Assembly (NCBI GenBank): GCA_019240395.1
Contig: JAFAYM010000171.1
Location: 1-47,070 of the forward strand
Direction: 5' to 3'
Length of the DNA stretch: 47,070 nucleotides
DNA from: Acidisphaera sp.
GTDB taxonomy: Bacteria; Pseudomonadota; Alphaproteobacteria; Acetobacterales; Acetobacteraceae
The notes under the pieces were generated by a model, which was not told the origin of the DNA, did no database searches, and worked only from the letters and a program-made list of their open reading frames with translations. Each line of letters opens with the position of its first letter. Position 1 is the first letter of the stretch. This document shows, piece after piece, positions 8,298-26,249 of this stretch. The position numbers were made by a program, and so were the translations under genes.

Positions 8298-11041
8298 GGT
8301 GACGCGAGCGGTCTGATCCGGGCGGCGCAGAACTTGAATTCGGGGATCTTGCCCACCGGATCGAGCGCCGGGTTGGTCAGCAGGTTCGCTGCCGCCTCCG
8401 CGTAGCAGAACGGAATGAAGATCATGTTGGGCGCCACGTCACGATCGGCGCGGATCTTGATCTCGATCGCACCGCGCCTGGTTTCCACGCTGATCATCGC
8501 ACCGGCGTGCAGGCCGCGCCTGGCCAGCTCACGCGGCGCCAGGAAGGCAATCGCCTCCGGTTCCAACTCATCCAAAGCAACGGAACGTCGGGTCATCGAA
8601 CCGGTGTGCCAGTGCTCGAGCACGCGGCCGGTGGAAAGCACCATGTCGAAATCGCTGTCGGGAAGCTCGTCGGGTGGCGCGACATCCGCCGGCACGATGC
8701 GCGCGCGGCCGCTCGCGGTCGGAAAGCCCGACCCGAAGATGATTTCATTCCCCGGCTTGTCCGGCGCATCGACGGGATAGGTCACCGCGCCCTCGCGCTC
8801 CAGCCGCTCCCAGGTGATGTTGGCGAGAGCCGGCATGCTCGCCGCCATCTCCGCGAAGATCTCCGCCGGTCCGGCGTAATTCCACTCGAGCCCGAGGCGC
8901 CGGGCGATCTTCTGGATGATCCACCAGTCCTGCCGCGCATCGCCCGGCATCGGCACCACCGGTCGCGCCAGCTGCACGCGCCGGTCGGTGTTGGTGAAGG
9001 TGCCGGTCTTCTCCGCGAACGCGCTCGCCGGCAGCACCACGTCGGCGTGGAACGCCGTCTCGGTGAGAAACAGGTCCTGCACCACGAGGTGCTCGAGTTC
9101 GGCGAGTGCGGTGCGCGCGTGATTGAGATCGGGATCGGACATCGCGGGATTCTCGCCCTCGACATACATGCCGCGGATCGTGCCGGCGTGCACGGCGCGC
9201 ATGATCTCGACGACGGTGAGCCCGCGCCGGTCATCGAGTTCCGCTTGCCAGAACGCCTCGAACCAGGCGTGCACCTTCGGGTCGTCGACCGGCTGGTAGT
9301 CGGGGAAGACCATCGGGATCAGCCCGGCGTCCGATGCGCCCTGCACGTTGTTCTGGCCGCGCAGCGGGTGCAGGCCGGTGCCGGTGCGGCCGATCTGCCC
9401 GGTGATCAGCGCCAATGCGATCAGGCACCGCGCATTGTCGGTGCCGTGCACGTGCTGTGAAATACCCATCCCCCAGAACAGGATCGCGGCGCGCGACGTG
9501 GCGTACAGCCGGGCGACCTCGCGCAGGGTCTCGGCGGGAACGCCGCAGACCTCCGCCATCCGCTCCGGCGGGAATCCGGCGATGCGCTCGCGCAAGGCCT
9601 CGAAGCCCTCGGTGTATCCCTCGATGTACTGCCGGTCGTAGAGACCCTCGGCGATGATCGTGTGCAGCAGCGCATTGATCAGCGCCACGTCAGTGCCTGG
9701 GGTGAAGCGCAGCGCGTGGGTGGCGAGCCGCGACAGCGCCTGGCCGCGCGGATCGGCGACGATCAGCTTCGCGCCGCGCTTCACCGCGTTCTTGATGAAG
9801 GTGGCCGCGACGGGATGGTTGACGCTCGGGTTGGCGCCGATGATGAAGATGACATCGGCGTCGAGCGCCGCGGCGAACGGCGCCGTCACCGCGCCGGAGT
9901 TGAGCCCCTCCATCAGCGCCGCCACCGACGAGGCGTGGCAGAGCCGGGTGCAGTGGTCGACATTGTTGTTGCCGAAGCCGAGCCGCACCAGCTTCTGGAA
10001 CAGATAGGCTTCCTCGTTCGATCCCTTGGCGCTGCCGAACCCGGCTAGCGCGCCGCGTCCATGCGCCGCACGGATGCGCGCGAAACCTGCGCCCGCCCGA
10101 TCGAGCGCCTCCTCCCAGCTTGCCTCGCGGAAATGCGTCCAGGGATTGGCGGGATCGACGCGATCGTCGGCGCGCTTGGGCACCCCCTCGCGGCGGATCA
10201 GCGGAACGGTGAGCCGGTGCGGGTGGGTGACGTAGTCATAGCCGAAGCGTCCCTTTACACAGAGGCGCCTGCGGTTGGCCGGCCCGTCCCGTCCATCGAC
10301 GTGCAGGATGCGATCCTGCTTGACGTGATAGGTCACCTGGCAGCCGACTCCGCAATACGGGCAGAGGCTGTCGACGGAGCGGTCGGCGTAATGGATGCGC
10401 TGCTGCGCGTCGTCGAGCAGCGCGGCCGGCATCAGCGCCCCGGTCGGGCAGGCCTGCACGCATTCGCCGCAGGCCACGCACGTGCTTTCGCCCATCGGAT
10501 CGTCGAAGTCGAATACCGGCTTCGCCGCGGCATTGCGGTAGGCCATGCCGATCACGTCGTTCACCTGCACCTCGCGGCAGGCGCGCACGCATAAGCCGCA
10601 TTGGATGCAGGCGTCGAGATTGACCGACATGGCGATATGGCTGGTGTCCGGCGCCCAGCGGCGTGCCGCGGGAAAGCGGCTTTCCGTGACGTCGATCCGC
10701 TCCGCCCAGCGCCAGAACTCGCTGTCGGGATCGTGCGCCCCCGCGCGCGGCGGCTGGTCGGCGACCAGCAGCTCCATCACCATGCGTCGAGCGAACACCG
10801 CCCGGTCGGACTGCGTGCTGACCTTCATACCCTCGGTCGGCCGCCGCAGGCAGGCCGGCGCGAGCACGCGCTCACCCGCGATCTCGACCATGCAGGCGCG
10901 GCAGTTGCCGTCCGGCCGGTAGCCGGGCTGCGGCGCGTAGCAGAGATGCGGAATGGCGATGCCGCGGCGCTGCGCGACCTGCCAGAGGGTCTCGCCGGAA
11001 GCCGCCTCGACGGCCGTGCCGTCGAGCTCGAAGGAGATCAT
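8279..11041 (-). CDS. fdsA: NAD-dependent formate dehydrogenase, molybdopterin catalytic subunit (FdsA-like)
   Basis: 920 residues from an ATG in an ATGA overlap with the stop of the upstream diaphorase subunit; the 61 codons open before it are read-through in another gene. It oxidises formate to CO2 at a bis-MGD molybdenum (or tungsten) centre in the cytoplasm. N-terminal [2Fe-2S] domain: Cys34, 47, 50, 64. Two ferredoxin-type [4Fe-4S] sites: Cys145/148/151/155 and Cys188/191/194/198. Proximal [4Fe-4S]: Cys227/230/234/261. The metal ligand is Cys368 followed by His369 (DHCTRLCH), so no selenocysteine is needed. The His-Cys3 [4Fe-4S] site usual in FdsA and NuoG is absent: the matching stretch (residues 92-112) has no Cys. 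The last residues are encoded in an intergenic hairpin. Confidence 0.93.
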   Translation of the reverse strand: MISFELDGTAVEAASGETLWQVAQRRGIAIPHLCYAPQPGYRPDGNCRACMVEIAGERVLAPACLRRPTEGMKVSTQSDRAVFARRMVMELLVADQPPRAGAHDPDSEFWRWAERIDVTESRFPAARRWAPDTSHIAMSVNLDACIQCGLCVRACREVQVNDVIGMAYRNAAAKPVFDFDDPMGESTCVACGECVQACPTGALMPAALLDDAQQRIHYADRSVDSLCPYCGVGCQVTYHVKQDRILHVDGRDGPANRRRLCVKGRFGYDYVTHPHRLTVPLIRREGVPKRADDRVDPANPWTHFREASWEEALDRAGAGFARIRAAHGRGALAGFGSAKGSNEEAYLFQKLVRLGFGNNNVDHCTRLCHASSVAALMEGLNSGAVTAPFAAALDADVIFIIGANPSVNHPVAATFIKNAVKRGAKLIVADPRGQALSRLATHALRFTPGTDVALINALLHTIIAEGLYDRQYIEGYTEGFEALRERIAGFPPERMAEVCGVPAETLREVARLYATSRAAILFWGMGISQHVHGTDNARCLIALALITGQIGRTGTGLHPLRGQNNVQGASDAGLIPMVFPDYQPVDDPKVHAWFEAFWQAELDDRRGLTVVEIMRAVHAGTIRGMYVEGENPAMSDPDLNHARTALAELEHLVVQDLFLTETAFHADVVLPASAFAEKTGTFTNTDRRVQLARPVVPMPGDARQDWWIIQKIARRLGLEWNYAGPAEIFAEMAASMPALANITWERLEREGAVTYPVDAPDKPGNEIIFGSGFPTASGRARIVPADVAPPDELPDSDFDMVLSTGRVLEHWHTGSMTRRSVALDELEPEAIAFLAPRELARRGLHAGAMISVETRRGAIEIKIRADRDVAPNMIFIPFCYAEAAANLLTNPALDPVGKIPEFKFCAARIRPLASPLYHRS

Positions 11042-17232: not shown

Positions 17233-17311
17233 GCCGCCGGTCTAATCAAACATGTCCAGGCAACCTAGCACATGGAGGGCGCTGCTGGATTCCCGCTTTC
17301 GCGGGAATGAC
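16906..17311. mobile_element. Candidate element: GIY-YIG gene between inverted palindromes (copy 1)
   Basis: The 25-base palindrome at 16906-16930 and the one at 17287-17311 are inverted copies of each other with 24 of 25 bases matching, and they enclose the GIY-YIG gene. The GTCAT ends face outward. A further copy of the right palindrome follows at 17329-17353. Mobility is an inference: no target duplication or empty site can be seen here. Confidence 0.45.
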
Positions 17312-17364
17312 GAACCGAGGGTGCTGCTGGATTCCCGCTTTCGCGGGAATGACGGACGGTGCAT
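17281..17364 (+). repeat. Two tandem 42-bp units each holding a family 1 palindrome
   Basis: Units at 17281-17322 and 17323-17364 begin GCTGCTGGATTCCCGC and share the first 32 bases exactly; the palindromes are 17287-17311 and 17329-17353, in inverse orientation to the copy at 16906. They lie in the gap between the GIY-YIG gene and the end of the ABC importer operon and may act as transcript ends. Confidence 0.85.
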
Positions 17365-17385: not shown

Positions 17386-18267
17386 TTATTCCTTCACCGC
17401 CCCGGTCATGCTCGAAACATAGTATTCGACGAAGAACGAATAGAAGATCGCCACCGGCAGCGACCCCAACAGCGAGCCCGCCATCAGCGAGCCCCATTGA
17501 TAGACGTCGCCTTGCACCAGCTCGGTGAGGATGGCGACCGGGACCGTCTTCTTCTCCTCCGACGAGATGAAGGCGAGCGCGTAGATGAACTCGTTCCACG
17601 ACAGGGTGAAGGCGAAGATGCCGGCCGAGATCAGTCCCGGGACGGCGAGCGGTAGGGTAATGCGGCGGAGGATCTGCAGCCGGCTGGCGCCGTCGATCAG
17701 CGCGCATTCCTCGAGCTCGTAGGGGATCGACTTGAAGTAGCCGATCAGCAGCCAGGTGCAGAACGGGATCAGGAAGGTCGGGTAGGTCAGGATCAGCGCC
17801 AGCGGGCTGTCGTAGAGCCCGAACTGGAACACCAGTTCGGCGAGCGGCAGGAACAGGATGGTCGGAGGCACCAGATAGGCCAGATAGATCGCCAGCCCCA
17901 CATAGTTCGAGCCGCGGAAGCGCAGCCGCTGGATGGCGTAGGCGGCCAGCACGCTGGCGAAGATCGAGATGATGGTGGCGCAGATCGCGACGGTCATCGT
18001 GGTCAGCAGCCAGCGCGGATAGTCCGTCTCGAACAGCAGCTTCTTGATGTTCGCGAGCGTCGGATGGGCGATCCAGAACGGGTTGCTCTGGTGGTAGTCG
18101 AGCAGCTCCTCGTTCGGCTTGAAGGCGGTGATGGTCATCCAATAGAACGGAAACAGCAGCACCAGCAGGAAGCAGGCGAGCGGCACGTAGATCGTCACCA
18201 CCCGGCGGATGCGGCTCTCCGAAGAGAGGATCGTCGGACCGTCGGAGGCGGCGACCGCCTCACTCAT
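17386..18267 (-). CDS. ABC transporter permease, MalG-like (carbohydrate uptake family)
   Basis: 293 residues with about six membrane helices after a cytoplasmic N-terminus. The coupling (EAA) loop that docks on the ATPase is visible as LEECALIDGASRLQILRRITLPL, in the usual place before the last two helices. One of two permease halves of a CUT1-type importer in the inner membrane; its start overlaps the end of the other permease gene by 8 bases. The order (binding protein, MalF-like, MalG-like) is standard. It is the last gene of the operon, and tandem palindromes follow it within 35 bases. Confidence 0.92.
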   Translation of the reverse strand: MSEAVAASDGPTILSSESRIRRVVTIYVPLACFLLVLLFPFYWMTITAFKPNEELLDYHQSNPFWIAHPTLANIKKLLFETDYPRWLLTTMTVAICATIISIFASVLAAYAIQRLRFRGSNYVGLAIYLAYLVPPTILFLPLAELVFQFGLYDSPLALILTYPTFLIPFCTWLLIGYFKSIPYELEECALIDGASRLQILRRITLPLAVPGLISAGIFAFTLSWNEFIYALAFISSEEKKTVPVAILTELVQGDVYQWGSLMAGSLLGSLPVAIFYSFFVEYYVSSMTGAVKE

Positions 18268-19216
18268 TGGCTTCGCCCTGCTGCCACTTGCGGCGCGACA
18301 GCGCGAAATAGCTGAACAGGGTGGACGCCACCAGGAACGGGATCATGGCGACGGCAATGGCCGCGCCCTCGCCGAGCTGGCCCCCGGGAATGCCGCGCTG
18401 AAAGGCGAGGGTGGCCATCAGCTGCGTCGTGTCGAACGGTCCGCCGCGGGTGATGGCGTAGACCAGCTGAAAGTCGCTGAAGGTGAAGAGCACCGAGAAG
18501 GTCAGCACGACGGCGAGGATCGGCATCAGCATCGGCGCGGTGACGAAGCGGAAGCGCTGCCAGGGCGAGGCGCCGTCCAGCATCGCCGCCTCGTAGAGCG
18601 AGGGCGAGATGGTCTGCAGCCCGGCGAGCAGGCTGATCGCGACGAAGGGGATGCCACGCCAGATATTGGCCGCGATCAGCGAAAACCGCGCGTGCCACGG
18701 CGTGCCGAGGAAGTCGATGTTGTGCGCCAGCAGGTGCAGGCGATCGACCAGCACATAGGAGATGATGGAGAACTGCGGATCGTAGATCCACCAGAAGGCG
18801 ATGGCGGAGAGCACCGTCGGCACGATCCAGGGCAGCAGGATGATCGCCCGGATTATCGAGCTGAACGGCAGCGCGTGGTTGAGCAGCAGCGCCAGCCACA
18901 GGCCGAGGGCGAATTTCCCGGCCGTGGCGACGGCGGTGTAGAAGATCGTCTGGAACACCGTCTTCAGGAACACCGGGTCGTGCGCCAGCGAGACGAAATT
19001 CTCGATGCCGACATACTCCCCGCCGCCGCCGATCTGCGTGTCGGTGAAGGCGAGCCACACGCCCAGCCCGAGCGGATAGGCCAGGAATACGACGAGCAGA
19101 CCGATCGCCGGCGTCAGGCAGGCGCAGATCAGGAAGGTCTTGTTGTCGAACAGGCGCGCCAGCCGCCCCGCTTCCGGGCGGCGCCGCAGGATCAAAGCGG
19201 GTGCGGCGACGTCCAT
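18260..19216 (-). CDS. ABC transporter permease, MalF-like (carbohydrate uptake family)
   Basis: 318 residues, six predicted helices; the first is CACLTPAIGLLVVFLAYPLGL at about 33-53. The EAA loop reads LYEAAMLDGASPWQRFRFVTAPML. It forms the heterodimeric membrane channel with the downstream permease. It starts 3 bases after the stop of the binding-protein gene and overlaps the next gene by 8 bases, so it is translationally coupled. No substrate prediction is possible from the permease. Confidence 0.92.
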   Translation of the reverse strand: MDVAAPALILRRRPEAGRLARLFDNKTFLICACLTPAIGLLVVFLAYPLGLGVWLAFTDTQIGGGGEYVGIENFVSLAHDPVFLKTVFQTIFYTAVATAGKFALGLWLALLLNHALPFSSIIRAIILLPWIVPTVLSAIAFWWIYDPQFSIISYVLVDRLHLLAHNIDFLGTPWHARFSLIAANIWRGIPFVAISLLAGLQTISPSLYEAAMLDGASPWQRFRFVTAPMLMPILAVVLTFSVLFTFSDFQLVYAITRGGPFDTTQLMATLAFQRGIPGGQLGEGAAIAVAMIPFLVASTLFSYFALSRRKWQQGEANE

Positions 19217-19219
19217 GGA

Positions 19220-20548
19220 TCAGCTTTTGTAGTAGCGCTGCGCCCGCTTCTCGGCTTCCGCCGCGGCGTCCTCCGGGGTCGCCGAGCCGCTGGCGACGGC
19301 GGCGAACATGTGCACGTTGACGTAGTCGGCGGTGGCCGCGCCGGAGGCGGCGGTGATCGGCCCCTTGTAGCCGTTCCAGAACTCGTTGGCGCAGGAATCC
19401 TTGTACACCGCGATCTTCGGATCGGACGTCCACACCGCGGCCTGCGCATAGGCCTTCAGCGGCTGCGCCCAGTAGCCGATGCAGCCGGTCAGCCACGGTT
19501 CATATTGTTCCTGCTCCATCATGAAGCGCAGGTATTGCTGCGCGGCATTCGGGAACTTGGTGTGCTTGAACACCATCGCATTGAGGATCAGCGCGGATTC
19601 CGGCGGCTTGCCGACCAACCCCGCCGGCATGTGCGCGTGGTTGGTGTCGGCGGCGACCTCGGCCATCTTCGGGTCGTTCTTCAGGGCGTAGTAGATCGAG
19701 ACGCCGTTCGAGGTCAGCGAAATGTCGCCGGCGATGAACGCCTTGTTGTTGCTCGGGTCGCCCCAGCCGAGGGTGCCCGAGATCATCGTCGGGTACATCT
19801 CCTTGGCGTATTTCAGCGCGTCGATCGTCTGCTTGCGATTGAGCGTCACCTTCCCGTCGTCGTCGACCATGTAGCCGCCATGCGCCCAAAGCAGCCAGTT
19901 GCAGTAGGCGTTGGCGTCGCCGACGGCGTTGCCGAGCGCGAAGCCGACGGGATGGTTGATTTTCTGCAGCGCCTGGCAGAGCTTGAGGAACTGCTCGAGA
20001 TCGTTGGGGATCTTGTCGAAGCCGGCGGCCTTCACCCAGGATTCGCGATAGACGCAGGGGCCGCTGGAGCCGCCCATCGGAATGGCGATCCAAGTCTTGG
20101 TGCCCCATTTCTGGGCGTATTTCTCGGCCAGAAAATACCAGCCGCCGTATTTGCGGCCGAGATAGTCGGCGAGTTCGCTGAGGTCGAGGATCTTGTCGGT
20201 GTAGAGGTGCGGGTCGTCCGGCCAGCCGACGACGATATCCGGGCCGGCGCCGGTGCGGGCGGCGACCGCGGTCTGCGGGCGCAGATCTTCCCAGCCGATG
20301 AAATCGACGCGCACCGGCACGCCGGTCGCCTTGACGAACTTGTCGGTGCTCTGCCGCCAGATCGTCTCGTCGGGATCGACGAACTTGGTCGGCCGCAGCA
20401 CGCGCAGCGTGGCGCCCTTCTCGATCTCCATCTTCGGCGGTTCGACATTGGCGACCGGAATGGCCGAGTAGCCGGCACCCGGTAGCGCCGCCGCCGCCAG
20501 CGCGCCGGCACCGAGCGCCAGGGTATTGCGTCGCGTGATGATGTTCAT
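19220..20548 (-). CDS. Extracellular (periplasmic) solute-binding protein, family 1, Tat-exported
   Basis: 442 residues. The N-terminus has a twin-arginine signal (TRRNTLALGAGA, Arg6-Arg7) with a hydrophobic stretch and an Ala-x-Ala-like cleavage region near residue 30, so it is probably exported folded. The body is of the family 1 type used by CUT1 importers: VRVDFIGWEDLRPQ, GAGPDIVVGWPDDPHLYTD, WIAIPMGGSSGPCVYRESW. Ribosome binding site AAGGAA lies seven bases before the ATG. It should deliver a sugar, oligosaccharide or related polyol to the two permeases. Its neighbours (sugar-acid-like dehydratase, hydroxyacid dehydrogenase) suggest an acidic sugar, but that is a guess. Confidence 0.92.
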   Translation of the reverse strand: MNIITRRNTLALGAGALAAAALPGAGYSAIPVANVEPPKMEIEKGATLRVLRPTKFVDPDETIWRQSTDKFVKATGVPVRVDFIGWEDLRPQTAVAARTGAGPDIVVGWPDDPHLYTDKILDLSELADYLGRKYGGWYFLAEKYAQKWGTKTWIAIPMGGSSGPCVYRESWVKAAGFDKIPNDLEQFLKLCQALQKINHPVGFALGNAVGDANAYCNWLLWAHGGYMVDDDGKVTLNRKQTIDALKYAKEMYPTMISGTLGWGDPSNNKAFIAGDISLTSNGVSIYYALKNDPKMAEVAADTNHAHMPAGLVGKPPESALILNAMVFKHTKFPNAAQQYLRFMMEQEQYEPWLTGCIGYWAQPLKAYAQAAVWTSDPKIAVYKDSCANEFWNGYKGPITAASGAATADYVNVHMFAAVASGSATPEDAAAEAEKRAQRYYKS

Positions 20549-20588: not shown

Positions 20589-21641
20589 TCAGTTCAGCCG
20601 GTTGCCGGTCTGCTCGTCGAAGAGATGCGCGAGTGCGGGGTTCGGCAGCACCTCGATGGTCTCGCCGGGCCTGGCGGCCACCCGCTCACGGAAGGCGCAG
20701 ACCAGCGAGGCGCTGCCGACGCGCGCAATGACGTGCGTCTCCGAACCGGTCGGCTCGATGACCTGCACGGTGGCGCGCAGGCCGCCGGGCGAGAGCATCA
20801 TGTGTTCGGGGCGGATGCCGTACACCACCGCCGCCCCGTTGACGCCGCCCGCCGCATTCGGCAGCGGCCAGGCCGCCCCGCCGGCATGGAACGCACCGTC
20901 GGCGATCCGCCCGGCCAGGAAGTTCATCGCGGGCGAGCCGATGAAGCCGGCGACGAAGCGGTTCGCCGGACGGTCGTAGAGCTCGAGCGGGGCGCCCACC
21001 TGCTCGACGCGGCCGGCCTGCATGACGACGATCTTGTCGGCCATCGTCATCGCTTCGATCTGGTCATGGGTGACGTAGATGATCGTGCTCTGCAGCCGCT
21101 GGTGCAGCTCCTTGATCTCGGCGCGCATCTGCACCCGCAGCTTGGCGTCGAGATTGGAGAGCGGTTCGTCGAACAGGAAGACCTGCGGGTCGCGGACGAT
21201 CGCCCGCCCCATGGCGACGCGCTGGCGCTGCCCGCCGGAGAGCTGGCGGGGATAGCGCGCGAGCAGCGGCGCCAAGTCGAGGATGCGGGCGGCGCGCTGC
21301 ACGTGCTCCTCGATCTCGACGCGGGTGGCGCCCGCCAGCTTCAGCGAGAACGCCATGTTGTCGCGCACCGTCATGTGCGGATAGAGCGCGTAGTTCTGAA
21401 ACACCATGGCGATGTCGCGCTGCTTGGGCGGCACGTCGTTGACCACGCGGCCGCCGATGGCGATCTCGCCGCCGCTGATATTCTCGAGCCCGGCGATCAT
21501 GCGCAGCAGCGTCGATTTGCCGCAGCCGGACGGGCCGACCAGGATGACGAACTCGCCGTCCTCGACCTCGACCGACACGCCGTGCAGGATCTGCGTTGCG
21601 CCGAAGGACTTCCGCGCCTGCCGGATGCTGACATGCGCCAT
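20589..21641 (-). CDS. ABC transporter ATPase, UgpC/MsmK-like
   Basis: 350 residues. Walker [11 protein letters not shown]-loop [13 protein letters not shown], signature [14 protein letters not shown], Walker [18 protein letters not shown]-loop [14 protein letters not shown], followed by a C-terminal TOBE/OB regulatory domain ([13 protein letters not shown]). It powers the importer encoded just downstream and is cytoplasmic. The start lies only two bases after the stop of the ThDP-enzyme remnant, which may now serve as its leader. Confidence 0.94.
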
Positions 21642-21643
21642 GC

Positions 21644-21970
21644 TCAGAACCGCGAGACCGAGGTTTCCTTCGACGTGATGCAGAGCTTGTCTGGCCGCGC
21701 CAGCTTGGCGTCCATGGCGAGGCCGAGTCCGTAGCCGAGCTGCGTGGTCTTGCCCCAGCCGAGATAGGTGAGCGGCTCGGTCGACACCCAGAACGGCGAA
21801 AGCTGGTCGGGCGGGCTGCCGGCGTCGTGGCCGATCCGCTCCTGGCGCACGATCACCGGGCGGATGTCGCGCGCGGCGGCGAATTCCAGCAGATGGTTGA
21901 CGGGGTAGCCCGCGAGGATCGCGATGCCCTCCCGCTTGAGGATCTCGGCGATTGCCTCGCCCACCTTCAT
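21644..21970 (-). pseudogene. Internally deleted thiamine-diphosphate (acetolactate synthase-like) enzyme
   Basis: 108 residues. The first 48 ([42 protein letters not shown]) match the start of ThDP enzymes of the acetolactate synthase superfamily. The sequence then jumps without a stop to a piece from the C-terminal ThDP-binding domain ([36 protein letters not shown]). More than 300 residues between them are missing, and the ThDP Mg-binding G-D-G...N motif that should follow KLCI is replaced by [10 protein letters not shown] and a stop. It keeps an open frame, so it may still be translated, but it cannot be an active enzyme. It lies between the SelA-like gene and the ABC ATPase gene. Confidence 0.82.
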
Positions 21971-22065: not shown

Positions 22066-22155
22066 ATACTTTCTTGAGTCATGGGGTCTGGGGCCGACGG
22101 GCCCCAGCGGGGTCCCATGCTTGAAGGGAGGGGGGCGGAGCCCTCGCCTTACTTG
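22066..22155. repeat. Half copy of the MITE-like family
   Basis: Bases 22081-22122 match 12792-12833 with one difference, and the right end CCCTCGCCTTACTT matches the terminal repeat of the 147-bp element except at the base that forms the stop codon of the SelA-like gene (TAA here, AAA in the citE copy). The left terminal repeat is missing. It fills the gap between the SelA-like gene and the ThDP remnant. Confidence 0.7.
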
Positions 22156-23291
22156 CTTCTCAGCAGGTCCCGGATCCGGCTCGCGACGATGCGCTCCTCC
22201 CCGTCGCGCAGCGAGTCCGGGGCGAGGATGATGACGTCGCGCCCGACGGTGCGCACGGATATCGCGGGCGAGCCGGTGGCGAGCTCGCTCACCAGGGTGG
22301 CGCACCGGGCGGGATCGCGCACATCGATCCAGACGCGGGGGATCGGCACGGGATGCATCTCCTGATCCTCCGGTGCGTCGAAGACGCGGCGCGAGCCGAT
22401 CCCCGGGACGTCGCGGAGGATCTCGAGCATGGTCTGCACGCGGCCCTCCCAGAGCTCCAGATCGGCGGCGAAATCGTGCTCCAGCACGCGCTCGACGGCG
22501 GTGACCAAGCCGGCGATCTCCTCCTTGCCGACCTTCATCGAGCGGCCGATGCAATTCTGGTTGGGAAAGGCGTTGAGCGCGCAGGCCTCGACCATGTCGC
22601 GGCGTCCGAGGACCAGGCCGGAGGATTGCGGGCCGCCGATCCCCTTTCCGCCGCTGAAGATGACGAGGTCCGCGCCGGCCTCGACGAAGCGGCGCAGGTT
22701 GCTCACCGGCGGCAGCTCGGAGGCGGCATCGACGATCACCGGTATTCCGCGCCCGTGGGCGATGTCGAGGACCTTCGGCAAGGGCAGGCTGTTGCGCCCC
22801 TCGTGGGAGATGAAATAGACGACCGCCGCGGTGCGCTCGCCGATCGCCGCCTCGAGTTCCCAGGCGAAGGTGTCGCGCGCCGAACCGATCTCCACCAGGC
22901 GCACGCCGGCCTGACGCACGCAGCAATCGTAGTGGTTGCGCTGATGCCGATGGACGATGACCTCGTCCTTCATGCCCCGCGTGTCCGGCAGTCGGTAGAT
23001 GCGGTCCGGCGCCCGCCCGGCGACGCAGGCGGCGGTGGTGACGGTCAGCCCGGCGGCGGCGCTGTTGACGATGAGCACGGCCGGGACGCCGATCAGGTGC
23101 GCCAGGTGCTCGCCGGACTTGCGCAGCAGCTCGGCGATGTCGACGAAGGCGCCGGACGCCTCGTTCATGGCGCGCAGCACGTCCTCGTGCATCAGCGAGC
23201 CGCCGATCTTGCTGGCGCGGGCCTGGGCGTTGATGACCTTGGCGACGCCGAGCCGGTCATAGAGGTCCATGTTCCGGCGGATCGGTTCCAT
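22149..23291 (-). CDS. SelA-like / DgaE-type PLP-dependent enzyme
   Basis: 380 residues from ATG 23291, which has AGGAG nine bases upstream. Fold-type I PLP enzyme of the SelA/DgaE group: LYDRLGVAKVINAQA at the start, substrate loop region SLMHEDVLRAMNEASGAFVD, IVNSAAAGL, Asp188 in PVIVDAASELPP, and the PLP-binding Lys216 in IFSGGKGIGGPQSSG. Family members include selenocysteine synthase and D-glucosaminate-6-phosphate ammonia-lyase. There is no selB or selC here and the formate dehydrogenase uses Cys, so a catabolic ammonia-lyase or aldolase-like role is more likely. It follows an amino acid permease gene by 11 bases, fitting an amino-sugar acid or amino acid substrate. Confidence 0.82.
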   Translation of the reverse strand: MEPIRRNMDLYDRLGVAKVINAQARASKIGGSLMHEDVLRAMNEASGAFVDIAELLRKSGEHLAHLIGVPAVLIVNSAAAGLTVTTAACVAGRAPDRIYRLPDTRGMKDEVIVHRHQRNHYDCCVRQAGVRLVEIGSARDTFAWELEAAIGERTAAVVYFISHEGRNSLPLPKVLDIAHGRGIPVIVDAASELPPVSNLRRFVEAGADLVIFSGGKGIGGPQSSGLVLGRRDMVEACALNAFPNQNCIGRSMKVGKEEIAGLVTAVERVLEHDFAADLELWEGRVQTMLEILRDVPGIGSRRVFDAPEDQEMHPVPIPRVWIDVRDPARCATLVSELATGSPAISVRTVGRDVIILAPDSLRDGEERIVASRIRDLLRSK

Positions 23292-23302
23292 CGCGCGCGC
23301 TC

Positions 23303-24829
23303 CTATTCCACCGGCAGTTCGGTGGTTACGTGGACGAGGGTGACGCCGCGTGCTGCCGCCCGGCCGCGTGCGCCGGCGTAGATCCAGATGGCGACCGCCG
23401 CGGCGACGAGGCCCTGGAACAGCGGCTGCAGGAACCACGGCGTGCCCGGCACGATGAGGCCGCCCCACAGCAGCACCGCCGAAATGACGATGGCGAGGAC
23501 AGCCATCAGCACGAGAAGCGGCGTCCCCTGGCGCATGCGCTCGGCCCAGTCGACGCCGCGGAAGCGCCGGTTGAAGCTGACGTTGAGCGCGCCCAGCGCG
23601 ATGAAGGCGACCATCAGCAGCACGGAGAAGGAGCGAATGACGATGCCGATGGCCCATCCGCCGAAGCAGGACTGCACCAGGAACATTGAGGCAAAGACGG
23701 TGGTGAGCAGCAGCGCCCGGTCCGGCGTCTTGCGCCGCGACGTATGGGTGAAGGAGGCCGGCATGACGTGGTCCTGGGCGAAACCGAAGATCAGCCGGGA
23801 GCAGACCATCATCTGCGGAATGATGGTCTTGCCGACGATGATGGCGACCAGGAAGTTCAGCAGGGTGCCGACGAATTTCGGCGCCACGACGCTGATCAGC
23901 CCGGGCACCGTGGCCAGCCCGGCGGCCTTGCCGCGGATCAGACCGAGGGTCGCCCACCAGGGCACGGCGTGAAACAGCGCGGCGGTGACCGCGGTATAGA
24001 GGATGAGGGCGGAGAACCAGCCGAGGAACAGGCCGCGCGGCACGGTGCGGGACGGGTCGCGCGCCTCGCCGCCGAGCGCCGGCGCGCCGGTCAGCCCGCC
24101 ATAGGCGGCGATGAAGACGAAGGTGACGGCGAGGAAGGCGGCGGCGCTCGGCGCCTGCGCGGTGCCGGGCGGCGCCAGGGAGACGCCAGACTGCGCCTGG
24201 GCGAGCCGGACGAAGGTCGCGGGGTCGGTGGCGAAGCCGTAGCCGACGACGACGATGACGACGGCGATGATCAGCGCGGCCAGGCCGATGACCAGGCGTC
24301 CGTAGATGTGCACGCCGGCGATGTGGGCGGCGAAGAACGCCCAGAGCAGGACCAGTCCGAGCAGGAGGTGACCGATCGGGTTGAGCAGCACGGCGCCCGC
24401 CGGCACGCCGGCGCCGACGAAGGCCTGGGCGAGGAAGGTGCTGAAGACGAAGGCGATGAAGCCCATCGCCGCTGTGAGGCCCACCCAGTCGAGAAAGCAG
24501 AGCACGAAACTGACGGGCAGGCTGAGCGCCCGGCTCATCCAGACATAGACCGAGCCGGCGCGCGACATCACCGCGGAGAAGCGCATGTAGAGGAAGACTT
24601 TGGGGATCAGCATGAGCCCGGCGGTGAGCATCGCCCAGGGCACGAGGTCCTGGATGCCGGGATAGACGCCGAGGCTGTTGGTCGAGGCGTAATTGATGGT
24701 CGCGCCGTATTCGTGGGCGAGCGCGGAGGCGCCGATCGCGGTGATGCCGAGGGTTTTCGCCAGGCGGAAGCGGTCCGGACCCTGGGCGCTCTCCGGTCCG
24801 CTCATGCGCTGCAGCGTTTCGGCGGGCAT
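23303..24829 (-). CDS. APC-superfamily amino acid permease
   Basis: 508 residues from ATG 24829 with GGGAG eleven bases upstream; 11 earlier codons are open but unneeded. About 12 membrane helices. APC features: the first helix region with TLGITAIGASALAHEYGA, the cytoplasmic loop GAPALGGEARDPSRTVPRG, and FAQDHVMPASFTHTSRRKTP. It imports an amino acid or amine by proton or sodium coupling, or by exchange. It is the first gene of the long minus-strand run that continues to 17386, and is divergent from the threonine-synthase-like gene. Confidence 0.87.
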   Translation of the reverse strand: MPAETLQRMSGPESAQGPDRFRLAKTLGITAIGASALAHEYGATINYASTNSLGVYPGIQDLVPWAMLTAGLMLIPKVFLYMRFSAVMSRAGSVYVWMSRALSLPVSFVLCFLDWVGLTAAMGFIAFVFSTFLAQAFVGAGVPAGAVLLNPIGHLLLGLVLLWAFFAAHIAGVHIYGRLVIGLAALIIAVVIVVVGYGFATDPATFVRLAQAQSGVSLAPPGTAQAPSAAAFLAVTFVFIAAYGGLTGAPALGGEARDPSRTVPRGLFLGWFSALILYTAVTAALFHAVPWWATLGLIRGKAAGLATVPGLISVVAPKFVGTLLNFLVAIIVGKTIIPQMMVCSRLIFGFAQDHVMPASFTHTSRRKTPDRALLLTTVFASMFLVQSCFGGWAIGIVIRSFSVLLMVAFIALGALNVSFNRRFRGVDWAERMRQGTPLLVLMAVLAIVISAVLLWGGLIVPGTPWFLQPLFQGLVAAAVAIWIYAGARGRAAARGVTLVHVTTELPVE

Positions 24830-24921
24830 TGTGTCGCGTCTCCCTGACGGCCACGGTAGCACCAGCTTGGACCGGATTCGTTCCGACGAATACCAGTTCT
24901 CGGGCGCGCCGACTCATAACA

Positions 24922-24946
24922 GTCATTCCCGCGAAAGCGGGAATCC
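24922..24946 (+). repeat. Palindromic repeat, family 1 (solo copy)
   Basis: GTCATTCCCGCG, AAAG, CGGGAATCC: the same palindrome as near the first GIY-YIG gene. A second hairpin (CCCCGC/GCGGGG, 24961-24977) follows. Both lie in the 214-base gap between the divergent permease and threonine-synthase-like genes; no nuclease gene is attached. Confidence 0.85.
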
Positions 24947-25043
24947 CTGTGGCGCGTGGACCCCGCTTTCGGCGGGGGTGGCGATAATCGGTGGCGCTCT
25001 GTGGGACCTCGTAGGACAGGTGCTTTAGCCGGGAGGACAAGGA

Positions 25044-26249
25044 ATGGACGGGTTTTCCACCTTCGCCGGACTCGAATGCTCGCGAACCGGCGAACGGGTG
25101 GGCGGGGAGCGGCTGGTCAATCTCAGCCCCGCCGGGGCCCCGCTGCTGGCGGTGTACGATGTCGGGCGCGCCGCGGCGACGATGCGCCGGGACGCGATGG
25201 CCGGCCGGCCGCCGACGATGTGGCGCTACCACGAAATGCTGCCCGCCCCGGCGCCCGACTGCATCGTCAGCCTGGGCGAGGGCATGACCCCGCTCCTGCC
25301 GGTGCCGCGGCTCGGGCAGAGGCTCGGCCTGACGCGGCTGGCGATCAAGGACGAGGGCGGCAATCCGACCGGCAGCTTCAAGGCGCGCGGCCTGTCGGCG
25401 GCGGTGACCATGGCGCGGCTGCTGGGAGCGGAAAGCCTGGCGATGCCCTCAGCCGGCAATGCCGGCGGCGCGCTGGCCGCCTACGCCGCCCGTGCGGGGC
25501 TGGCGGCGCATATCTTCATCCCCGCCGACGCGCCGCTCTCCAACCGTGCCGAGGCGCTGCTCGCCGGGGCGGAGGTGACGCTGGTGCGCGGCTTCCTCGA
25601 CGATTGCGGCGTCGTCGCGGGGCAGCGGGCGCGCCAGGCCGGCTGGTTCGACGTGTCCACCTTCAAGGAGCCGTATCGGGTCGAAGGCAAGAAGACCATG
25701 GCCTACGAACTCGTCGAGCAGATGGGCGGGGAGGTGCCCGACGTGATCGTCTATCCCACGGGCGGGGGAACCGGGCTGGTCGGCATGTGGCGGGCGTTCG
25801 GCGAGATGCAGGCGCTCGGCTGGATCGGCGAGCGCCGGCCGCGGCTGATCAGCGTGCAGGCGGAGGGATGCGCGCCCCTGGTTCGCGCCTTCGCCGCCGG
25901 CGCCGCGGAAAGCCTGCCGTGGTCGCAGCCGACCACCCGCGTGGGCGGCCTGCGGGCGCCGCGGGTGCTGGCGGATTTCCTGTGCCTGCAGGCGATCCGC
26001 GCGAGCGGCGGCACCGCGATCGCGGTGCCTGACGAAGCGATGTTCGCGGCGCAGCGTGAGGCCGGTCGCGCGGAGGGGATCGGTCTATGCCCGGAGGGCG
26101 GCGCCTGCGTCGCGGCGCTGCGCCTGCTCGTCGAGCGTGGAGAAGTGGGCCGGGACGAGCGGATCGTCGTCTTCAACACGGCTTCTGCCGCGAAATACGT
26201 CGAGATGCTGGCGACCGAGGCCCCGGTGATCGATCCGCCGCCGCGGTGA
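25044..26249 (+). CDS. Threonine synthase-like PLP enzyme
   Basis: 401 residues. ATG preceded by GGGAGGACAAGGA. Fold-type II PLP enzyme: SLGEGMTPLLPVPRL, DEGGNPTGSFKARG with Lys113 as the PLP lysine, the Ser/Asn loop MPSAGNAGGALAAYAA, IVYPTGGGTGLVGMW for the phosphate cup, and ICP-type end VFNTASAAKY. Threonine synthases make threonine from O-phosphohomoserine; close relatives are 2,3-diaminopropionate or threonine lyases. The N-terminal zinc-ribbon-like segment of this subgroup has only one Cys (LECSRTGE). It stands apart from thrA/thrB and beside a catabolic cluster, so a degradative role is possible. Confidence 0.8.
   Translation: MDGFSTFAGLECSRTGERVGGERLVNLSPAGAPLLAVYDVGRAAATMRRDAMAGRPPTMWRYHEMLPAPAPDCIVSLGEGMTPLLPVPRLGQRLGLTRLAIKDEGGNPTGSFKARGLSAAVTMARLLGAESLAMPSAGNAGGALAAYAARAGLAAHIFIPADAPLSNRAEALLAGAEVTLVRGFLDDCGVVAGQRARQAGWFDVSTFKEPYRVEGKKTMAYELVEQMGGEVPDVIVYPTGGGTGLVGMWRAFGEMQALGWIGERRPRLISVQAEGCAPLVRAFAAGAAESLPWSQPTTRVGGLRAPRVLADFLCLQAIRASGGTAIAVPDEAMFAAQREAGRAEGIGLCPEGGACVAALRLLVERGEVGRDERIVVFNTASAAKYVEMLATEAPVIDPPPR

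Follow-up and report, generated by a model that had tools for sequence, protein, structure and literature searches.

A probable upstream frame for coupled ATPase translation in Acidisphaera sp.: what is most likely a recently inactivated, in-frame ThDP-enzyme pseudogene heads an ancestral importer operon

We analysed a stretch of 47,070 nucleotides from Acidisphaera sp. (contig JAFAYM010000171.1), hereafter called the window, in which a short open reading frame stands directly ahead of the genes for an ABC importer (Table 1). The TGA of this frame ends at 21644 and the ATG of the ATPase gene begins at 21641, leaving 2 nt (GC) between them, as an earlier sequence-only reading of the same DNA had correctly stated. 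Upstream of the frame, positions 22149-26249 hold genes for a DgaE/SelA-like PLP enzyme and an APC-type permease on the same strand, and a threonine synthase gene lies from 25044 on the opposite strand. Between the PLP-enzyme gene and the short frame lies a G+C-rich inverted repeat (22077-22115, minus strand), possibly a terminator, in which case the short frame would have its own promoter. At about 17250-17340 and 24950-25010, translations near gene ends contain the strings IPAKAGIQ and IPAFAGMT, which resemble what we take to be a dispersed extragenic repeat common in proteobacteria.

Table 1. Features of the truncated frame and of the importer genes that follow it, in window coordinates
Feature	Position	Strand	Basis or remark
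Remnant ORF	21644..21970	-	108 codons + TGA; PRK06154-type ThDP enzyme with two deletions
Native N-terminal piece, enzyme residues 1-47	21830..21970	-	96% amino-acid identity to residues 1-47 of the G001 enzyme
Junction 1	21828..21831	-	residues 48-381 (1002 nt, 334 codons) missing; 1-2 nt common to the ends
Native C-domain piece, enzyme residues 382-432	21677..21829	-	carries R388P and G421D
Junction 2	21676..21680	-	residues 433-532 (300 nt, 100 codons) missing; CATCA (5 nt) at both inferred ends
Native C-terminal piece, residues 533-542 and native TGA	21644..21676	-	DNA alignment and codon comparison with relatives
ABC ATPase, MalK/UgpC-type, 350 aa, intact	20589..21641	-	NF008653, 506 bits (cut-off 432)
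Solute-binding protein	19220..20548	-	assigned from its place in the operon and from 52-71% identity to its counterparts in relatives; unmatched in NCBIfam
Permease A, MalF/UgpA-like	18260..19216	-	below curated cut-offs
Permease B, MalG/UgpE-like	17386..18267	-	below curated cut-offs

The sole genome of the same genus compared (G001) carries an intact enzyme of 542 residues (C9:309-1937) that belongs to the NCBIfam family NF004807/PRK06154 (883 bits, cut-off 607). Measured against this reference, the short frame consists of the native residues 1-47, 382-432 and 533-542, in order, and retains the enzyme's own start, last ten codons and stop in one open frame. Amino-acid identity to the G001 enzyme is 92% and 79% over two stretches, and the DNA comparison yields three collinear blocks of 81-82% identity, the last of which extends into the ATPase gene, together with one additional short match of 73% that is unrelated. 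Because of these identities and the collinear blocks, a chance resemblance to a ThDP enzyme is excluded. The remnant is not a full-length enzyme of about 540 residues: in Pfam, both TPP_enzyme_N (residues 1-46, 20.3 bits, cut-off 26.8) and TPP_enzyme_C (residues 49-98, 19.1 bits, cut-off 21.9) remain below their cut-offs. The stretch NVWGDAAIGF...LLNN of the G001 enzyme, which we take to be the Mg/ThDP-binding stretch with its motif GD...N, falls inside the deleted residues 433-532 and is absent from the remnant, which cannot act as an enzyme. A PDB search gave only ThDP enzymes among the 60 matches listed (best E 1e-51) and added no function, and no mention of PRK06154 was found in the literature searched. 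When the remnant itself was used as query, 29 of 100 genomes matched at E <= 0.001, its own genome counted.

The two deletions removed 434 of the 542 codons (1302 nt), about four fifths of the coding sequence. Both lengths are multiples of three and the frame is preserved, an outcome that two deletions would reach by chance in 1 of 9 cases. According to the codon tables of relatives, the breakpoint at junction 1 is ambiguous by 1-2 nt. The inferred junction homologies, 1-2 and 5 nt, are of the size seen in illegitimate recombination and too small to arise from an error in the assembly graph. The sequence-only reading had described what in-frame deletion left of an acetolactate-synthase-like ThDP enzyme, with the Mg-binding motif gone, and the alignment to G001 bears this out, the motif stretch lying within the second deletion. 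It had assumed one join with more than 300 residues lost, which is accurate for the in-frame loss of residues 48-381 but omits the second deletion of residues 433-532; likewise, its C-terminal part is indeed a C-domain fragment (382-432), but the ten-residue tail with the enzyme's own C-terminus and stop had escaped it.

In G001, the ATPase gene follows 7 nt after the intact enzyme gene and is then truncated by the contig end. For a wider comparison we used 100 relative loci, 20 from family genomes and 80 from named records (the best 80 of 182). A full readable enzyme gene was obtained from 94 of them; L042, L055, L069, L080 and L085 were left out as partial, and L043 was left out with the gene spanned and the ATPase next to it, but with no clean reading. 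With an ATPase match accepted at 60% identity or more and no farther than 1500 nt downstream, the ATPase gene directly follows the enzyme gene, within 217 nt, in 45 of the 94 intact copies (G001 counted). The 94 genes all differ from one another, but many belong to close kin and the two sets of loci seem to have some genomes in common, so that neither 94 nor 45 can be read as a number of independent cases. In 33 of the 45 pairs the ATPase is in turn followed by the binding protein and both permeases, while the other 12 comprise 9 that run out of sequence within 2500 nt and 3 (L068, L078, L091) that truly lack at least one gene. Many relative loci have no such ATPase nearby. In L118 (G011:C39, reversed coordinates), the enzyme gene at 9136-10746 is followed by the binding protein gene from 10806, the ATPase being missing between them with about 60 nt left, and in L133 (G059:C56) the order is rearranged, with ATPase, binding protein and permeases preceding the enzyme. 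Because an intact enzyme precedes the same ATPase in 45 of the 94 relatives, G001 among them, the operon of ThDP enzyme, ABC ATPase, binding protein, permease A and permease B is, by gene order, ancestral. The sequence-only reading had advised looking for an intact enzyme in close relatives; the G001 orthologue in front of the same ATPase is such an enzyme, and it marks the remnant as a descendant of an intact gene at the same place.

The intact enzyme as query (E <= 1e-60) matched 149 of 397 family genomes, in a search that misses the window's own remnant and is blind to gutted copies. A more sensitive search with the remnant (E <= 1e-12) matched 150 of these genomes; the additional one is the window's own, and no second gutted copy was seen among the matches listed for these 397 genomes. 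Short matches or ORFs in G259, G299, G292, G381, G345:C240, G277 and G273 are situated at contig ends or continue beyond them, and those in G008, G160, G221 and G027 touch contig ends by coordinates; further short single matches are listed for G051 (at a contig start), G183, G324 and G357. A second version of the enzyme, about 50% identical, was observed at G167:C2:273729-275351, where the copy has one internal TGA, and at similar places in G118, G206, G216, G169 and G134.

Of the 108 retained columns, 43 are invariant in the 94 intact copies, and the remnant breaks two of them (R388P and G421D). When each of the 94 intact copies was left out in turn, 88 broke no invariant column, 6 broke one and none broke two. 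The two broken positions fit a gene that no longer needs to work, and as changes in a draft assembly they are also possible base errors. Yet there is no overall excess of amino-acid change: the median non-synonymous difference to 93 intact copies is 0.124 for the remnant and 0.122 for G001, the remnant is the more distant of the two in 52 of the 93 comparisons, and between remnant and G001 dN is 0.069 and dS 0.70. By these distances the evolution of the remnant is not clearly accelerated, which argues that the death of the gene is young. The dN/dS of the remnant, which the sequence-only reading had recommended checking, thus gives a divided answer, with no overall acceleration but two invariant positions broken; as a pairwise measure of relaxed selection it was set aside as uninformative, the remnant and G001 being at roughly equal distance from the intact copies. 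If all changes are neutral, two hits in invariant columns correspond to about seven substitutions, or 2.2% per site, and at that age an open frame would survive by chance with a probability of 0.45 (0.1 indels per substitution) or 0.67 (0.03 indels per substitution). With chance survival this probable, an open frame cannot by itself demonstrate selection.

The strength of the Shine-Dalgarno (SD) pairing was taken as the predicted duplex energy between the 20 nt upstream of a start codon and the 16S end, for which we used a sequence assumed by us. At −2.4 kcal/mol, the ATPase start in the window is the weakest of 46, pairing less strongly than those of all 45 relatives (−3.8 to −12.0 kcal/mol). 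The 8 relatives with a gap of at most 7 nt between enzyme and ATPase range from −3.8 to −5.9 kcal/mol, and the 37 with larger gaps from −6.1 to −12.0 kcal/mol; over the 45 pairs, gap and SD energy are correlated (Spearman rho −0.59, p 1.7e-5, relatedness ignored). Other starts in the window operon are also weak (permease A −0.8, permease B −3.9 kcal/mol), and the remnant's own start reaches −5.6 kcal/mol. Termination-reinitiation calls for an overlap or a gap of a few nucleotides between stop and start, as is found here, and the final 33 nt of the enzyme gene survive in the remnant. For E. coli, Huber et al. 2023 (PMC10666635) report that reinitiation is strongly dependent on short distances: a 2-nt gap cut it by 5, 20 and 70% in three gene pairs, one of 38 nt reduced it by at least 80%, leaving little or none, and the final 15 nt of the preceding gene are enough for it. 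The ATPase has the weakest SD of the 46, and its start codon comes 2 nt after the stop of the remnant, so that the likeliest role of the remnant would be to couple translation of the ATPase to its own. Many relatives combine a longer gap with a strong SD of their own, so that coupling does not characterise the family as a whole. Past junction 1, neither of the two other frames meets a stop ahead of the ATPase ATG (the stretch read included about the first 60 nt of the ATPase gene); deletions out of frame would thus take ribosomes past the ATG, in one frame as a fusion, and this makes a filter for in-frame deletions plausible. The possible translational leader of the sequence-only reading accordingly fits the 2-nt gap, the very weak ATPase ribosome-binding site and the kept native 3' end. 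Among the papers on pseudogenes and coupling that were listed, judged by titles and the openings of abstracts, none describes a gutted gene that persists as a translational leader.

Several other explanations have to be set against this one. The genome might still have an intact enzyme, with the contig wrongly skipping two segments; we consider this improbable, and the remnant is probably a real, recently dead gene. The assembly is a draft in 303 contigs, which speaks for such an artefact, but two skips would be required, each in frame, over homologies of merely 1-2 and 5 nt, and usual assembler word lengths are far above 1-5 nt. Moreover, the missing 1302 nt were not found elsewhere in this assembly, which is 97.85% complete, and the two substitutions at invariant positions would be unexpected in a living enzyme, though possible as base errors. 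A search of the same genome found neither a moved nor a second intact enzyme copy; other matches there are at most 34% identical, and those with E below 1e-20, besides the two pieces of the remnant, are ThDP paralogues (26-30% identity) in ORFs of 576-901 codons. The recent operon fusion considered by the sequence-only reading, by which an enzyme fragment would have put the importer under new control, is rejected, its probability being close to nil. In its favour, the remnant and the G001 enzyme have different upstream neighbours, but synteny rules it out: the adjacency of enzyme and ATPase is ancestral, and about 50 nt ahead of the remnant's start codon still align to G001. The upstream genes of G001 are presumably amine-oxidase-like and PtsP-like. 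The amine-oxidase-like gene has no match in the window's own genome (G000) at E <= 1e-20, and the best G001 match of the window's DgaE/SelA-like PLP enzyme is 52% identical and lies on another contig (G001 being 72% complete). Because the upstream genes differ between the window and G001, a rearrangement or gene exchange may have occurred just upstream of the remnant.

That the product of 108 residues is a functional microprotein, for example a regulator or partner of the importer, appears very improbable. Its frame is open, its start site is usable and amino-acid change is not in overall excess; against this stand the two altered invariant residues, the fact that no second gutted copy was seen among the matches listed, and a poor predicted model. 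AlphaFold2, run on an alignment of 20 rows (the remnant and 19 intact relatives), returned a mean pLDDT of 53.7, with values under 50 at 61 of the 108 residues, no confidence over residues 42-84 and moderate confidence over the first 40 (block means 70-78), but the alignment misplaced about 8 remnant residues before junction 1, so that the model is a weak test. Taken with that caution, a function of the peptide itself is unlikely. A plain neutral pseudogene, with deletions in frame by chance, a frame still open from youth and an ATPase translated unaided, is a more serious competitor that we nevertheless regard as unlikely. The chance of two in-frame deletions, the survival odds of the frame at the inferred age and a median non-synonymous difference not above that of G001, as in a young pseudogene, all accord with it. 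It leaves aside, however, that the ATPase start has the weakest SD of all those compared and lies directly behind the stop, and that what was kept is the native 3' end needed for coupling. We hold it to be somewhat better than an even bet that the locus shows a recently dead first gene of an ancestral operon, with translation of the ATPase coupled through the in-frame remnant.

Based on this reading, we propose the following sequence of events, in which (i) illegitimate deletions of 1002 and 300 nt, given a correct assembly, took 434 of the 542 codons together with the Mg/ThDP motif; (ii) both lengths being multiples of three, the gene's original start, its ten final codons and its stop stayed in one open frame; (iii) ribosomes on the short frame would terminate and then restart on the ATPase gene, whose own site is very weak; (iv) frame-breaking deletions would have cost importer expression, so that the in-frame pair was tolerated; and (v) the remnant peptide itself would do nothing. 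We tentatively go one step further, to a view that is itself doubtful, namely that the enzyme gene has been pared by frame-preserving deletions to a short leader selected for importer expression, its protein being free to decay. The parts of such a leader may be a ribosome entry site, a filler frame, and terminal codons with a stop that load the next gene. If the remnant does act as a leader, it shows how coupling can select among the deletions that a dying first gene of an operon accumulates, and short ORFs with domain fragments may persist for the sake of ribosomes and not of peptides; if it does not, the locus is a case of ordinary gene decay. The importer has persisted although its usual partner enzyme is gone, a circumstance that may help in finding its substrate.

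In summary, the remnant is most likely a young in-frame ThDP-enzyme pseudogene in an ancestral importer operon, and it is probably still used as an upstream frame for coupled ATPase translation. Compared with the NF004807/PRK06154 enzyme ('thiamine pyrophosphate-requiring protein', acetolactate-synthase-like), its three pieces align in order, but it is short of 434 of 542 residues, which include the middle of the protein and the Mg/ThDP motif. In-frame deletion pseudogenes inside operons are a known kind, with which the locus shares a dead first gene and intact downstream genes; here, in contrast, there are two deletions, and both native ends are left. With termination-reinitiation coupling as set out in PMC10666635, it shares a stop and start close together, a weak SD of the second gene and a native upstream 3' end, whereas it differs in that the coupling is predicted from sequence and the upstream cistron is a dead gene.
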